Assembly: GCA_017621695.1 (NCBI GenBank)
Contig: JAGASP010000034.1
Span: forward strand, 1-46,195
Reading direction: 5' to 3'
Source of the DNA: Clostridia bacterium
GTDB taxonomy: Bacteria; Bacillota; Clostridia; Oscillospirales; CAG-272
Length of the DNA: 46,195 bases
How positions within the stretch are numbered: the stretch's first letter is position 1; each line of letters starts with the position of its first letter. Under the pieces are notes generated by a model. That model was given only the letters and a program-made list of their open reading frames with translations, was not told the DNA's origin and searched no databases. Below, one piece after another: positions 11,424 to 22,876 of the stretch. A program made the position numbers and the translations under genes.

Positions 11424-12839
11424 ATGGCAAAGCAAATGATGATGCCTCCCGATGACCTTGCGTCACGGTGGGAATATACCAATAAAATAAGACTTTGGAA
11501 TCAGGAATGTGTTTCCCAACGTAAAGTTTTCGTGCAGACATTTGGTTGTCAGCAAAACGAGGCTGACAGTGAAAAATACCTCGGCATGGCCGTCAGCATG
11601 GGCTATAAGGCTACGGATACCCCTGATAATGCGGATCTTATCATTGTCAATACCTGTGCCATTCGTGAGCACGCTGAGAAAAAGGCTTTGTCCATCATTG
11701 GCCAGTATAAGCATATCAAAGCGAAAAACAAAGATCTCATCATCGGTGTCTGCGGATGCATGGTTGCCCAGGAGCACCGCAGGGAAGAGCTGAAAATGAA
11801 ATATCCTTACGTCACGTTTACGTTGGGTACGGCATCTCTTCACCATTTGCCGCGCGTGCTGTGGGAGGCAATTGAGTCCAAAAAGCGGCTCATTACCACC
11901 GACAGCGACGTAGACTTTACCGAGACCGTGGCCGAGGGTATGCCCGTCCGCCGAGGCTCGGATTACCGTGCATGGGTATCCATCATGTATGGCTGCAACA
12001 ATTTTTGTTCATACTGCATCGTACCCTACGTCCGCGGCCGTGAGCGCAGCCGTAAGAAGGAGGACATCATAGCCGAGGTCAAGGCTCTCGTGGCGGAAGG
12101 CTATAAGGACATCACCCTCCTCGGACAGAACGTCAATTCCTATGGCAAGGGAACAGATACCGACTTTGCTGATCTTCTGGCAGAGCTTGATACCGTTGAG
12201 GGAGACTTTTGGCTTCGTTTTATGACCAGCCACCCGAAGGACGCAAGCCACAAGCTCATTGACGTGATGGCGGGCGGCAAGCACATCGCGCACCAGTTCC
12301 ATTTGCCCCTGCAATCCGGTAACGATGCTGTATTGAAGGCTATGAACCGTCATTACGATATGAACAGATACATGGACAGCATCCACTATATGCGTGAAAA
12401 AATGCCGGGGATAACCGTTACCTCTGATATCATCGTAGGCTTCCCCGGAGAGACCGAAGATCAGTTTGAAGACACCTTGACAGCGCTCAAAGAAGTACAG
12501 TTTGATATGCTGTATTCCTTCATCTATTCTCCGCGTAAGGGTACGCCCGCAGCTGAGAAGGAACAGATTCCAGATACCGTCAAGGGGAATCGTTTTGACC
12601 GTCTCTTGGCTACGCAAAATGAGATTGCTAAGGAAAAAAATCTTTTGCTGCAAGATCAGATCTTGCGTGTCCTGTGCGACGGAGTCAGCAAGGGGGATCC
12701 CGGCGTTTACAGTGGGCGCACAGAAGGGAATAAGATCGTCTTTTTTAAGGGAACGCCCGACATGGTGGGACAGTTTGTCAACGTAAAAATCGACAAAACC
12801 GAAGCCTTCGCTCTTTGGGGCGAAATAGAAAAAACGTAA
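11424..12839 (+). CDS. miaB: tRNA-2-methylthio-N6-dimethylallyladenosine synthase MiaB
   Basis: 471 residues. This radical SAM methylthiotransferase converts i6A37 to ms2i6A37 in tRNAs reading UNN codons. The N-terminal methylthiotransferase domain shows the three auxiliary-cluster cysteines in FGCQQNEAD, NTCAIRE and GVCGCMVAQE. The radical SAM motif CxxxCxxC is CNNFCSYC, followed by the usual YVRGRERSR segment, and a TRAM-like domain ends the protein. ATG 11424 has AAAGGA about 10 nt upstream and a consensus promoter before it. The length fits the family. The neighbouring YlbF/RicA-family, mutS and mutL genes reproduce the Bacillus miaB(ymcB)-ymcA-mutS-mutL neighbourhood. A paralog such as MtaB or RimO is unlikely given the extended N-terminus and this synteny. 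Confidence 0.95.
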   Translation: MAKQMMMPPDDLASRWEYTNKIRLWNQECVSQRKVFVQTFGCQQNEADSEKYLGMAVSMGYKATDTPDNADLIIVNTCAIREHAEKKALSIIGQYKHIKAKNKDLIIGVCGCMVAQEHRREELKMKYPYVTFTLGTASLHHLPRVLWEAIESKKRLITTDSDVDFTETVAEGMPVRRGSDYRAWVSIMYGCNNFCSYCIVPYVRGRERSRKKEDIIAEVKALVAEGYKDITLLGQNVNSYGKGTDTDFADLLAELDTVEGDFWLRFMTSHPKDASHKLIDVMAGGKHIAHQFHLPLQSGNDAVLKAMNRHYDMNRYMDSIHYMREKMPGITVTSDIIVGFPGETEDQFEDTLTALKEVQFDMLYSFIYSPRKGTPAAEKEQIPDTVKGNRFDRLLATQNEIAKEKNLLLQDQILRVLCDGVSKGDPGVYSGRTEGNKIVFFKGTPDMVGQFVNVKIDKTEAFALWGEIEKT

Positions 12840-12882
12840 CGTCATCCTGAGGGAGGGCTCTGCCCAAGTCGAAGGATCTCAA
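12840..12882. repeat. Single copy of a widespread GTCATCCTGAG...CGAAGGATCTC interspersed element
   Basis: Just after the miaB stop the sequence reads GTCATCCTGAG, a GC-rich centre containing GGGCTCTGCCC, then AGTCGAAGGATCTC. From memory this matches a short interspersed element found in many bacterial genomes (complement GATCCTTCGACT...CTCAGGATGAC). Only one copy is seen in this window. It forms part of the spacer before the YlbF-family gene. Confidence 0.5.
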
Positions 12883-12913
12883 AAATATATGATACAAATA
12901 GGAGAATAAAATC

Positions 12914-13324
12914 ATGGAAAACAACAACATTGATACCAAAAACGTCTTTGAACTGGCCATCATCCTGGGCAAGGCCCTGAAGGAAGACCCTCGCCTCGTC
13001 AAAATGGAGGAGTGCCGCAAGGCTTACGAGGAAGATGCCGAGTTGTCCCAACTCATGGCAGAATACAATGTCCAGCAGAAGGCCATGGAGAACGTGACCA
13101 TGGGCGAGGACTTCGATCCCCAGCTCATCCAGAATATCCAGGACCGCATCAACGTTCTCTATGAGAAGATCACTGTCCATCCCGTGTTCGTGGAGTTGAA
13201 CAAGGCGCAGGAGGCTGTCAACGAGCTGATGAATGCCGTCAATAATACCATCACCTTTGCCATCACGGGAGAGATGCCCTCTAACTGCACCCACGATTGC
13301 TCTACCTGCGGTGGGTGCCACTGA
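12914..13324 (+). CDS. YlbF/YmcA (RicA/RicF) family protein with a Cys-rich tail
   Basis: 136 residues, mostly helical and charged, matching the YlbF/YmcA family (DUF964) in length and in the central LxxEYNxQQ-like region. In Bacillus, family members YmcA (RicA) and YlbF (RicF) form a complex with YaaT (RicT) that binds Fe-S clusters and affects RNase Y processing, competence, sporulation and biofilm formation. Its place between miaB and mutS matches that of Bacillus ymcA. The C-terminus is C-x3-C-x2-C-x2-C (Cys125, 129, 132, 135; CTHDCSTCGGCH), a plausible Fe-S or zinc ligand set. ATG 12914 has GGAG about 10 nt upstream. The family call is fairly firm; whether it is the RicA or RicF equivalent is open. 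Confidence 0.8.
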   Translation: MENNNIDTKNVFELAIILGKALKEDPRLVKMEECRKAYEEDAELSQLMAEYNVQQKAMENVTMGEDFDPQLIQNIQDRINVLYEKITVHPVFVELNKAQEAVNELMNAVNNTITFAITGEMPSNCTHDCSTCGGCH

Positions 13325-13457
13325 GTATCCTTCGGACACAGTGATATTCGCACGTGGTGCGAGTGAGATCCGCGCCGGGCGCGGGTGATATTCGTGCTTT
13401 GCACGAGTGAAATCTGCCTCTTTGAGGCAGGTGAAGGAATGTTTTGCTATGCAAACA
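13325..13457 (+). repeat. Tandem array of short hairpins with a GTGATAT-type linker
   Basis: Six consecutive small inverted repeats fill the gap before mutS. Stems and loops: GTATCC-TTC-GGACAC (13325-13339, one mismatch); TCGCAC-GTG-GTGCGA (13348-13362); CCGCGC-CGG-GCGCGG (13370-13384); TCGTGC-TTT-GCACGA (13392-13406); CTGCCTC-TTT-GAGGCAG (13414-13430); TGTTTTGC-TAT-GCAAACA (13440-13457, one bulge). Linkers are GTGATAT, GTGAGAT, GTGATAT, GTGAAAT and a longer GTGA-initial one. Unit length is 22 bp for three units and 24 for the next. Every loop is 3 nt. Stem sequences are unrelated yet complementary, so the structure rather than the sequence is kept. I cannot name an established family for it. 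Confidence 0.85.
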
Positions 13458-13489
13458 ATTGAATTTGATGTGAGAAAGAGGAACGTGTC

Positions 13490-16087
13490 ATGACACCCAT
13501 GATGCAGCAGTATTTTGAGATCAAAAATCAGTACAAGGATTTCCTTGTGTTCTACCGTCTCGGAGATTTCTACGAGATGTTCTTTGACGATGCCATCACC
13601 GCCTCCCGCGTGCTGGAGTTGACCCTCACGGGCAGAGATTGCGGCGAAGCCGAGCGTGCGCCCATGTGTGGCGTCCCCTTTCACTCGGCAGAGGGCTATA
13701 TCGGCAAGCTGATCGAGAAGGGCTTCAAGGTGGCCATCTGTGAGCAGGTGGAGGATCCCGCCACTGCAAAAGGGCTGGTCAGGCGCGAGGTCATCCGTGT
13801 TATCACCCCGGGTACGGTCATTGAATCGTCTCTCTTACCTGAGCAGAAAAACAACTATATCTGCTCCATGTACCTCTCGGAGATGTCCTTCGGCCTCTGC
13901 TTTGCCGATGTCTCCACGGCTCAGGTGCACGCCACCGTCATTGACGGAGACCGCATGGACGAGCATCTCATCAACGAGCTAGGTACCTATATGCCTCGCG
14001 AGGTCATCAGCAATCTTTCAACCAAGAAATTTTCAAATGCTGCTGAGTACATTACATCCCACGGCGGACTCATCACAGACAATCAAAGCGGCCGCTTCGA
14101 CTATACGATATGTGCCGCCCGCGTGTCAGCCCAGTTTGGTGAAAATCTCAAGGAAGGGATTCTTGAAAACAAACCCCTCGTTTCTGCTGTTGGCGCTCTG
14201 CTTGATTATCTGACCGAAACACAGAAGAACGATTTATCCTATATCAAAGAACTGTTGGTCTATGATGAAGGTCAATATCTGGAGCTTGACGTCAACACAA
14301 GACGCAATCTGGAGCTGACGGAAACCATGCGTACCAAGGAGAAAAAAGGATCGCTTCTTTGGGTATTGGATAAGACCAAAACTTCTTCGGGCGCTCGTAT
14401 GCTGCGCCGTTGGGTTGAGCATCCTCTGCTTGCACCGGACAAGATCATTCGCCGCCAGAATGCGGTAGAAGAGCTTTACAGCACCTTTATGATGCGAGAA
14501 GAGATCTCAGAGCTTCTCTCGCACGTGCTTGATCTGGAACGGCTCATCACCAAGATCGTTTACGGCACGGCAAACGCTAAGGATCTGCGCGCTGTATGGA
14601 GTACTGCAAGCGTTTTGCCCGAAATCAAGACGCTTTTGCAGAATGCAGAGTCAGACGAGCTGCGCCGTATTTATCAGGAGTTGGATTGCCTCACGGATAT
14701 TTGCGACGAGATCCATCGCGGCATTACCGAGGAACCTCCTTTTACTGTCCGCGACGGCGGCATGATCTCCGACGGCTACGATCCCGAGGTTGACCGTCTC
14801 CGCTCCATTATGAAAAACGGTCAATCCTGGGTTGAACAGGTTGCCGCTGAGGAAAAGGAGCGTACGGGCATCAAAACCCTCAAGATCAGCTATAATAAGG
14901 TGTTCGGCTACTATATCGAGGTATCCAAGTCCTTTATGAACATGGTGCCCGATACCTACATCAGAAAGCAGACCCTCGCAAATTGCGAGCGTTATATCAC
15001 AAGCGAACTCAAAGACATGGAGTCCACCATTCTGGGCGCTAAAGACAAGGTCTGTGCCTTGGAATACGAAATTTTCAACCGTATCCGCTCGTTTGTGGCA
15101 GAACGAAGCGAGCGTGTCCAGCACACCGCCGCGCTTCTGTCTGAGTTGGATGTGTACTGTAGCCTTGCTACCGTAGCCTCCCGCTATCAGTACGTTCGTC
15201 CTGAGATCACCGCCACCGATGTCATTGACATCCGTGACGGCCGTCACCCCGTGGTGGAGCGGTTCGTTAAGGATCTCTATTTCGTTCCCAACGACGTGTA
15301 TCTCAACACCAAGGACGACCGCCTCATGCTCATCACAGGCCCTAACATGGCGGGTAAATCTACCTATATGCGACAGGTAGCTCTTATTGTCCTGCTCGCC
15401 CAGATCGGCTCCTTTGTGCCTGCGTCGAGTGCCAGCATCGGTATCGTGGACAAAATGTTCACCCGCGTGGGCGCGTCCGACGACCTGGCCAGCGGTCAGT
15501 CCACCTTCATGTTGGAAATGAACGAGGTGGCCTACATCCTACGCAACGCCACCAAAAAGAGCCTCATCATCTACGATGAAGTGGGTCGCGGTACGTCCAC
15601 CTTTGACGGTATGTCCATCGCCCGCGCCATCGTGGAGTACACCGCCAGCCGCAAGATCGGCGCGCGTACCCTGTTTGCCACCCATTACCACGAGCTGACA
15701 AGCATGGAAGGGGAGTACGACGGTGTGGTGAATTATCACATCGCCGCCAAGAAGCGGGGAGATTCCATCACCTTCCTCCGCAAGATCGTCAAAGGCTCCA
15801 CCGATGACAGCTACGGTATCGAGGTTGCCAAGTTGGCAGGTCTTCCTAACGAGGTCATCAAGCGCGCCAAGGAGGTGCTGTCCATGGTGGAGGCTTCTTC
15901 CAAGGCCGTTCGTGATGCTGTGGATGGTGACGCTTCGACGAAGGCGAAAGAAGACGATGGCTTGCTTTCTATTGATGATATGATCAATGATCAGCTTCTC
16001 GAAGAGCTTCGACAGGTAGATCTCAATACGCTGTCGCCCTTTGAGTGTATGTCGCTCATGTTTGAGTGGAAAAAGAGGTACAGATAA
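13490..16087 (+). CDS. mutS: DNA mismatch repair protein MutS
   Basis: 865 residues, full length for MutS1. It recognises mispairs and short loops and recruits MutL. The N-terminal mismatch-binding motif is visible as FYRLGDFYEMF (Phe-x-Glu). The C-terminal ABC-type ATPase has Walker A GPNMAGKST, the Q/signature stretch DDLASGQSTFMLEM, Walker B LIIYDEVGRGTSTFDG and a switch histidine in LFATHYHEL. The last 60 residues hold a helix-turn-helix-like dimerisation tail. ATG 13490 follows AGAGG (13477-13481). The gene begins 33 nt after a tandem hairpin array, which forms its leader or intercistronic region. The last third of the gene is visibly richer in C/G-ending codons than the middle. Confidence 0.97.
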   Translation: MTPMMQQYFEIKNQYKDFLVFYRLGDFYEMFFDDAITASRVLELTLTGRDCGEAERAPMCGVPFHSAEGYIGKLIEKGFKVAICEQVEDPATAKGLVRREVIRVITPGTVIESSLLPEQKNNYICSMYLSEMSFGLCFADVSTAQVHATVIDGDRMDEHLINELGTYMPREVISNLSTKKFSNAAEYITSHGGLITDNQSGRFDYTICAARVSAQFGENLKEGILENKPLVSAVGALLDYLTETQKNDLSYIKELLVYDEGQYLELDVNTRRNLELTETMRTKEKKGSLLWVLDKTKTSSGARMLRRWVEHPLLAPDKIIRRQNAVEELYSTFMMREEISELLSHVLDLERLITKIVYGTANAKDLRAVWSTASVLPEIKTLLQNAESDELRRIYQELDCLTDICDEIHRGITEEPPFTVRDGGMISDGYDPEVDRLRSIMKNGQSWVEQVAAEEKERTGIKTLKISYNKVFGYYIEVSKSFMNMVPDTYIRKQTLANCERYITSELKDMESTILGAKDKVCALEYEIFNRIRSFVAERSERVQHTAALLSELDVYCSLATVASRYQYVRPEITATDVIDIRDGRHPVVERFVKDLYFVPNDVYLNTKDDRLMLITGPNMAGKSTYMRQVALIVLLAQIGSFVPASSASIGIVDKMFTRVGASDDLASGQSTFMLEMNEVAYILRNATKKSLIIYDEVGRGTSTFDGMSIARAIVEYTASRKIGARTLFATHYHELTSMEGEYDGVVNYHIAAKKRGDSITFLRKIVKGSTDDSYGIEVAKLAGLPNEVIKRAKEVLSMVEASSKAVRDAVDGDASTKAKEDDGLLSIDDMINDQLLEELRQVDLNTLSPFECMSLMFEWKKRYR

Positions 16088-21603: not shown

Positions 21604-22743
21604 ATGTTTACGATTCTCGCAACCGACGGACGCGCCCGCAGAGGCGTGCTCCACACCGTTCACGGTGACATCCAGACCCCCGTTTTCATGAACGTGGGCA
21701 CCTGCGCCGCCATCAAGGGCGGCGTATCCACCATGGAGCTGCTCAATGACGTGGATTGCCAGGTCGAGCTCTCCAACACCTACCACCTCCACATCCGCCC
21801 CGGCGACAAGCTCATCTACGACATGGGCGGCCTCCACAAGTTCATGAATTGGCCCAAGCCCATCCTCACCGACAGCGGCGGATTCCAGGTCTTCTCCCTG
21901 TCCTCCCTCCGCAAGATCACCGAGGAGGGCGTGAAGTTCGCCTCCCACGTGGACGGCAAACGCATCTTCATGGGCCCCGAGGAGAGCATGCAGATCCAGT
22001 CCCACCTGGCCTCCACCATCGCTATGGCCTTTGACGAGTGCATCGAGAACCCCGCCCCCTACCAGTACGTCAAGCAGTCCTGCGCCCGCACCGTCCGTTG
22101 GCTGGAGCGTTGCCGCGCCGAGATGGACCGCCTCAACAGCCTCCCCGAGACCATTAACCGCAACCAGATGCTCTTCGGCATCAACCAGGGCGGTACCTAC
22201 GAGGATCTCCGTATCGAGCATATGCACCAGATCTCCGAGATCCCCTGCGAGGGCTACGCCATCGGCGGCCTGGCGGTCGGTGAAGCCACCGAGGAGATGT
22301 ACCGCATCATCGACGCCGTGGAGCCTCATATGCCCAAGGATAAGCCCCGCTACCTCATGGGCGTGGGGACACCCTGCAACATCCTGGAGGCCGTCCACAT
22401 GGGCGTGGACTTCTTCGACTGCGTCATGCCCTCCCGCAACGCCCGCCACGGCAACCTCTTCACCTGGGAGGGTAAGATCAACCTCCTCAACGAGAAGTAC
22501 ATGAAGGATCCCCGCCCCATCGGCCTGACCTGCGACTGCCCCACCTGCAAGAGCTACTCCCGCTCCTACATCCGCCACCTCATCAAGGCCAAGGAGTCCC
22601 TGGGTATGCGCCTGGCGGTCACCCACAACCTGTACTTCTACAACAACCTCACCCGCAAGATCCGCGAGGCTCTGGAGGGGGGCTACTTCGAGAGCTTCTA
22701 CCAGAAGTACCGCGTGATTTTGGGTGAGCGTTGCCCCGACTAA
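21604..22743 (+). CDS. tgt: tRNA-guanine transglycosylase (queuine/preQ1 tRNA-ribosyltransferase)
   Basis: 379 residues, normal for bacterial Tgt. It swaps G34 of GUN-anticodon tRNAs for preQ1. Substrate-binding and catalytic segments are visible: ILTDSGGFQVFSL with the conserved Asp, GINQGGTYEDLR, YAIGGLAVGE, and DFFDCVMPSRNARHG with the nucleophile Asp. The zinc site is CDCPTC followed by a distal His in THNLYFYNN. ATG 21604 has AGAGGAA upstream. Codon use is extreme: nearly every third position in 21740-22640 is C or G, unlike the A/T-rich addAB genes nearby. A QueG-like gene lies 8 kb away on the other strand and could act later in queuosine synthesis. Confidence 0.96.
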   Translation: MFTILATDGRARRGVLHTVHGDIQTPVFMNVGTCAAIKGGVSTMELLNDVDCQVELSNTYHLHIRPGDKLIYDMGGLHKFMNWPKPILTDSGGFQVFSLSSLRKITEEGVKFASHVDGKRIFMGPEESMQIQSHLASTIAMAFDECIENPAPYQYVKQSCARTVRWLERCRAEMDRLNSLPETINRNQMLFGINQGGTYEDLRIEHMHQISEIPCEGYAIGGLAVGEATEEMYRIIDAVEPHMPKDKPRYLMGVGTPCNILEAVHMGVDFFDCVMPSRNARHGNLFTWEGKINLLNEKYMKDPRPIGLTCDCPTCKSYSRSYIRHLIKAKESLGMRLAVTHNLYFYNNLTRKIREALEGGYFESFYQKYRVILGERCPD

Positions 22744-22754
22744 GTAAGATACGC

Positions 22755-22847
22755 GCCGAGCAAGCTCGGCAGATACAAAGATACAAGATACAAAGATATC
22801 AGATAAGCTGAACCCGAGGCATATCTTGTATCTCGTATCTTGTATCT
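22755..22847. repeat. Intergenic palindrome built of GATACAA heptads
   Basis: A small hairpin GCCGAG-CAAG-CTCGGC (22755-22770) is followed by AGATACAA/GATACAA/GATAC-type repeats (22771-22799). The near-complementary arm ATATCTTGTATCTC/GTATCTTGTATCT lies at 22821-22847. The two arms can pair over about 27 bp with a few bulges around a 21-nt centre. It fills the gap between tgt and the HAD gene. It looks like a dispersed palindromic element or an mRNA-stabilising structure rather than a gene. Confidence 0.7.
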
Positions 22848-22876
22848 CTACTCAACTATCCGAAAGGAGTATCCCT

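Follow-up and report, generated by a model that had tools for sequence, protein, structure and literature searches.

A hairpin array upstream of mutS as a probable solo copy of a dispersed Gut-1-type repeat with a candidate PF05635 partner protein

The array of short hairpins that lies between a ylbF-family gene and mutS in the window (the whole stretch of 46,195 nucleotides that was analysed) is probably an old solo copy of a hairpin-array repeat that occurs dispersed in related genomes and has a putative cognate protein of the PF05635 family. Complete copies of the repeat have two arms, and the mutS copy, which has neither a second arm nor an adjoining PF05635 gene, is most likely a solo relic of such an element.

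Anatomy of the array and the mutS loci of related genomes

The anatomy was read directly from the plus strand, on which all features given here lie. The array begins immediately past the stop codon of the ylbF-family gene (12914..13324; Com_YlbF, PF06133, the upstream neighbour by Pfam) and comprises, as first described, six stem-loops upstream of mutS (13325-13456), all with 3-nt loops. Hairpin 1 (13325..13339, GTATCC-TTC-GGACAC, stems 13325-13330/13334-13339) forms five of six pairs and precedes linker 1, GTGATAT (13341..13347). Hairpin 2 (13348..13362, TCGCAC-GTG-GTGCGA, stems 13348-13353/13357-13362) is followed by linker 2, GTGAGAT (13363..13369), hairpin 3 (13370..13384, CCGCGC-CGG-GCGCGG, stems 13370-13375/13379-13384) by linker 3, GTGATAT (13385..13391), and hairpin 4 (13392..13406, TCGTGC-TTT-GCACGA, stems 13392-13397/13401-13406) by linker 4, GTGAAAT (13407..13413). 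Hairpin 5 (13414..13430, CTGCCTC-TTT-GAGGCAG, stems 13414-13420/13424-13430) leads into the tail linker GTGAAGGAATG (13431..13441); judged by eye, other solo arrays also carry GTGAAGG-like words at their 3' ends. Hairpin 6 (13442..13456, TTTTGC-TAT-GCAAAC, stems 13442-13447/13451-13456) again forms five of six pairs. Watson-Crick pairs thus make up 35 of the 37 in the stems, with a single mismatch each in hairpins 1 and 6. A likely mutS ribosome-binding site, AAAGAGG, is predicted from the sequence at 13475..13481, and mutS, the downstream neighbour by Pfam, occupies 13490..16087. The linkers start at 13341, 13363, 13385 and 13407, in the exact 22-bp steps of the preliminary description; the GTGATAT-type linker does recur, but its words vary more than had been implied.

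The longest run in the window of perfect 6-bp hairpins no more than 10 nt apart has four members, and in 30 dinucleotide shuffles of the window the longest run was one (26 shuffles) or two (four shuffles). The single linker word is unenriched in the window (26 matches where 21 are expected), and the folding energy of the array (z -2.5) is a weak argument. Three further stretches of the window were seen in passing. Positions 12841-12882, between a miaB-like gene and ylbF, are partly palindromic and presumably resemble another dispersed repeat. A long, imperfect inverted repeat at 22743-22860, built of repeated AGATAC in one half and GTATCT in the other, precedes a gene that is HAD-like by eye, and the end of the contig (45900-46195) carries a direct duplication of 151 bp.

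The window's own genome (G000) is one of 58 that were compared. A mutS match was obtained in 55 of them, G007 being one without, and the leader scan covered 30 of the 55 loci, of which that of G010 is cut by a contig end. Arrays were present at three of the 30 loci (G000, G004 and G006) and none was seen at the other 27. The same three are the only positives among 10 genomes of the genus with an extracted leader, the window's own included, and G001, a close relative of G004, has no array in its mutS leader. The array is not a conserved mutS feature.

Stem sequences differ yet remain complementary in the orthologous mutS leaders that carry the array and in complete elements, as first noted for the units of the window array. 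With stems placed by hand, the G000 and G004 arrays share 23 of 37 pairs unchanged, with 12 compensated, none changed on a single side and two broken. The G000-G006 comparison (36 pairs) gave 16 unchanged, 18 compensated, none single-sided and two broken, and the G004-G006 comparison (38 pairs) gave 24, 13, one and none. Four-fold sites flanking these arrays are 0.35-0.64 identical. At five other orthologous array loci (six pairwise comparisons), most stem pairs are unchanged, with two compensated changes versus six one-sided or broken; the flanking four-fold identity is 0.53-0.66 at three of these loci and 0.79-0.81 at two. The free change of stems is therefore a peculiarity of mutS among the loci examined.

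The near absence of single-sided changes, together with a single G.U among the 119 pairs of the three mutS arrays, would be expected if the palindromes were kept by mutation alone, with template switching copying the stem from arm to arm and no function involved. Template switching has been proposed for RNA hairpins (PMC8794818). As a full account it is nevertheless unlikely, since it leaves the conserved linkers, the two-armed layout, the dispersal and the link to PF05635 unexplained, and the stems at the other orthologous loci are mostly unchanged or broken.

Gut-1 matches, solo arrays and complete elements

The preliminary description knew of no named family that fits the array, but Rfam Gut-1 (RF01706) matches it at 13339-13418 on the plus strand with 50.6 bits, barely above the gathering score of 50. 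The match covers model positions 1-77, and model and array have the hairpin-linker layout in common; the window copy differs from the model in its solo form and its 3' tail. Since 2010 Gut-1 has figured as a structured RNA known from gut metagenomes, its function unknown (Weinberg et al., PMC2864571). A literature search on Gut-1 and GTGAAAT hairpin palindromes, the scope of which did not extend to PF05635 together with repeats, found no paper on a GTGAAAT palindromic repeat.

The suggestion of a replicating repeat was borne out as far as copy number goes, which was observed directly. G000 holds nine Gut-1 matches, five of them over the cut-off, and 39 of the 58 genomes have matches (35 over the cut-off), with up to 60 per genome; 14 control genomes gave one match, in E. 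coli, below the cut-off. The exact triple-linker pattern was found 397 times, counting overlapping triples, in 26 of the 58 genomes, and never with the reversed pattern. Linker pairs 8-28 nt apart number 19 in G000 versus none for the reversed-pattern control; a few of the 19 (e.g. C3:48182) enclose a non-palindromic spacer. Among the relatives reached through YlbF, those with names are assemblies of Oscillospiraceae or Clostridia; where a title states the source, it is a ruminant (roe deer, sheep, goat, water buffalo or yak). Near-alike paired copies occur at many sites in G011 and G007, often at contig ends. In a viral collection at least 120 stretches matched, and three of the 80 listed loci that were examined carry truly palindromic arrays. 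One viral-collection locus (L326, IMGVR_UViG_650377966, 12967-13283) shows a tRNA-Ser, a terminator, a complete GTGAAAT element and then a short reading frame in which, by eye, both ends look like those of a PF05635 protein.

Gut-1-type arrays adjoin many unrelated genes in both orientations. Solo arrays in the genus, counted in rows that include orthologues of each other and are not independent, are sense in 11 cases and antisense in 16. With both neighbours called, 27 of 28 lie between co-directional genes (background, 145 of 203 gene pairs), and none of 50 arrays lies inside a gene called by a codon-based caller. Linkers are mixed in eight of 32 solo arrays versus none of 39 two-armed or paired arrays; in two of the eight (L003 and L191) the odd linker is a word beyond the array.

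Across the family, full pairing is seen in 166 of 255 distinct spacers, versus at most 37 after partner swaps. Helices maintained as RNA should tolerate G.U. Among 210 spacers, mismatches beside 1222 Watson-Crick pairs comprise seven G.T versus 10 A.C, while the tRNA acceptor stem control gave 16 G.T versus one A.C; solo arrays alone gave three and two. The first count also included 60 C.T/T.C mismatches, which by eye seem attributable to a mismatched hairpin that recurs and to pairing close to loops. The mismatch test shows no RNA bias and is compatible with RNA roles. It is possible that stems are rewritten during copying, which fits the scarcity of G.U pairs.

These data bear on the earlier suggestion that the array acts as a folded leader in the mRNA, setting how strongly mutS is expressed or how stable its message is, with the structure kept by selection on the RNA. 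The array does sit in the ylbF-mutS spacer, a scan of 12800-13600 gave neither a promoter-like site nor, on the sense strand, a terminator-like one, and the stems are complementary in three species, the other five loci being mostly unchanged with more broken or one-sided than compensated pairs. However, no array was seen at 27 of the 30 mutS loci (one truncated), including that of G001 near G004, arrays elsewhere lie in both orientations, and G.U is not in excess, either in the family at large or in the mutS arrays. With three positive loci in 30, unrelated neighbour genes and both orientations, regulation of mutS is unsupported as a general explanation, and a dedicated leader is quite unlikely. 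The lack of a G.T excess and the occurrence in either orientation favour a DNA-level repeat rather than a dedicated mutS RNA regulator. Locally, the array would be at most a hairpin spacer in the ylbF-mutS message, through which it might affect mutS expression. Covariation, commonly taken to indicate a functional RNA, can on the evidence of mutS arise in a repeat that does not favour G.U.

From the loci fetched for Gut-1 matches, 36 distinct two-armed GTGAAAT copies were extracted. In the left arm GTGAAAT linkers alternate with hairpins, and the right arm carries the reverse-complement linkers, ATTTCAC. The first stem of a complete element can pair with either of two partners. When 12 complete elements picked for variety were aligned, 94.3% of cells were paired, versus at most 47% in slid controls, and 29 of 43 pairs had changes on both sides; this covariation was observed directly, with the pairing structure taken from the same alignment. 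For these loci fetched by a Gut-1 match, to which the shares apply, a T-run lies directly 5' of 30 of the 36 elements; 20 have a co-oriented tRNA or tmRNA gene within 600 nt upstream, and for 16 of these 20 the distance is within 45 nt. Many complete elements begin straight behind the terminator of such a gene. Other linker words occur in the same two-armed layout and define several linker families, and complete and paired elements have terminal inverted repeats. The 77-position Rfam model, typed as an sRNA, fits one arm of this two-armed dispersed element.

No target-site duplication was evident by eye at the printed flanks. Two site differences were observed directly: two G011 copies were not found at the corresponding flanks in G010, G007 and G006. 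The matching flanks could be located, but other sequence lay between them rather than a clean empty site, in G006 a TCGATAT-linker array, and no excision was seen among the compared sites. A series of cassettes behind the elements was considered and rejected: 20 larger regions, the surroundings of arrays with at least three linkers in which the gene caller misses short genes, show one element and no long series, apart from two elements each in L210 and L229. By eye, what look like tRNA 3'-terminal fragments stand ahead of additional complete elements in L045, L170 and L048; those in L045 and L170 read TTCAGAATC, and the intact tRNAs there have TTCGAATC.

The covariation in complete elements and the original report (Weinberg et al. 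2010, PMC2864571) speak for Gut-1 as a stand-alone noncoding RNA gene. The repeat is multi-copy, however, its linker occurs in both orientations within one element, there are several linker families, and the G.T/A.C ratio shows no G.U excess, so that a separate RNA gene is very unlikely.

Association with PF05635 genes

A PF05635 (23S_rRNA_IVP) gene follows five of the 36 complete GTGAAAT elements (L042, L151, L159, L174 and L175), and other reading frames follow the remaining 31. Some complete elements are succeeded by promoter-like sequence, a ribosome-binding site and the PF05635 gene. Co-occurrence was observed directly: across the 58 genomes PF05635 is present in 32 of 39 Gut-1-positive versus four of 19 negative genomes (p = 2e-5), and with one row per genus, the only handling of kinship in this test, in 23 of 29 versus three of 18 of the 47 genera (p = 5e-5). 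Seven Gut-1-bearing genomes have no PF05635.

Of 102 PF05635 places, 91 were read, and a profile built from 15 of the proteins found 92 open reading frames. By a strict test an array lies upstream of 40 of the 92; the same test flags one of 86 control genes and six of 66 neighbours of PF05635 loci. A two-armed linker score found upstream repeats at 56 of 85 PF05635 genes versus four of 86 control genes. A tRNA lies within 450 nt upstream of 34 of 82 PF05635 genes. By sequence, a solved relative is 2rld.

Linker words by PF05635 clade include GTGAAAT, TCGATAT, ATGATGT and GTGAAGT, and a clade-specific linker array upstream of a PF05635 gene was found for the family as a whole. The match between linker and clade was itself observed: in 32 of 38 cases the nearest protein has the same linker, a number that none of 2000 shuffles reached. 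When neighbours were limited to less than 75% protein identity, the linker was common in 14 of 38, so that part of the match reflects common descent of whole loci.

A prediction written beforehand placed TCGATAT arrays in G000, G001, G006, G013 and G020. All five were positive (p = 3e-4), with 74, 16, 92, 29 and 6 triple-linker matches, respectively. The accompanying prediction that TCGATAT is rare elsewhere held in part, as eight further genomes were positive. All 13 TCGATAT-positive genomes carry some PF05635 gene, and in one of the eight unpredicted ones, G010, the sole PF05635 match is of GTGAAAT type. The 74 matches in G000 count overlapping triples and lie on contigs C5, C8, C14, C16, C24, C37, C50, C73 and others, many at contig ends. 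Of the two PF05635 genes read in G000, one (L454) has TCGATAT arrays upstream and the other had none detected; by its TCGATAT counts the window's genome is rich in this sister family, with L454 aboard as the presumed partner gene. No GTGAAAT-type PF05635 gene was found in the drafts of G000 or G004 (91 and 94% complete), and GTGAAAT copies thus persist there without a seen partner.

The proposed element and known systems

From the sequence comparisons we infer that the PF05635 protein probably recognises the linker-plus-hairpin array bearing its own clade's word, and it may be needed for the spread or upkeep of the array. The stem sequence would be free provided that it stays palindromic, and copies without the protein gene would be left between genes. 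The mutS copy would be one of these, seen in three species with drifting linkers and stems that change freely yet stay complementary. We tentatively propose, as a possible new class of element, two-armed hairpin arrays in which a cognate four-helix-bundle protein of the PF05635 family reads the linker as its recognition word and the stems can be rewritten if palindromic; such elements would dock behind tRNA terminators and scatter protein-less copies (Gut-1 and its sister families) between genes. We know of no class of small bacterial genetic element of that kind. Should the link hold, Gut-1 would be one of the two arms of a mobile-looking DNA element that has a named protein as its partner. 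PF05635, named from rRNA insertions, would gain a testable role outside rRNA, and the repeat would have an explicit linker-protein code, analogous to but unlike that of REP and RAYT.

REP, BIME and REPIN elements with their RAYT genes likewise consist of palindromes scattered between genes; they too have a conserved foot and form inverted pairs, and some copies lie beside the gene of a partner protein. The conserved words by the hairpins, the inverted pairs with terminal hairpins, the lack of a target duplication evident by eye and the one Y1 gene of G000 would all suit movement by a resident RAYT (Y1 transposase, PF01797). This is highly improbable, and Y1 was rejected as the driver for lack of association with Gut-1: 12 genomes with at least nine Gut-1 matches have no Y1 match, Y1 is present in 20 of 39 Gut-1-positive versus eight of 19 negative genomes (Fisher p = 0.58), and the G000 Y1 gene carries another, GTAG-type palindrome, with no above-cut-off Gut-1 match in its 3.3-kb locus. 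The present repeats have several hairpins per arm, free stems, 7-nt linkers and PF05635 in place of a Y1 transposase. The REP foot is described as GTAG or CGTC (PMC3733652), and the linkers here are GTGAAAT and other words instead. In G000 just one Y1 transposase gene was found, at 1264-1842 of locus L058 (G000:C36), and it has GTAGGGGCGACC-type palindromes within and around its reading frame.

The pneumococcal BOX repeat, described as MITE-like (PMC3049150), is also modular and interspersed; its module number varies, and stem-loops are predicted for it. Its modules are described there as conserved in sequence and accompanied by target duplications, whereas the repeat described here has stems of free sequence, and no such duplication was evident.

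Intervening sequences of 23S rRNA carry an IVP gene, from which the PF05635 family takes its name, and there too a protein of this family stands beside a hairpin-forming insertion tied to a structural RNA gene. The window copy lies between ylbF and mutS and not inside 23S rRNA, and the elements described here lie beside tRNA or protein genes with the hairpin array before the gene. Avd of diversity-generating retroelements has a related four-helix-bundle fold.
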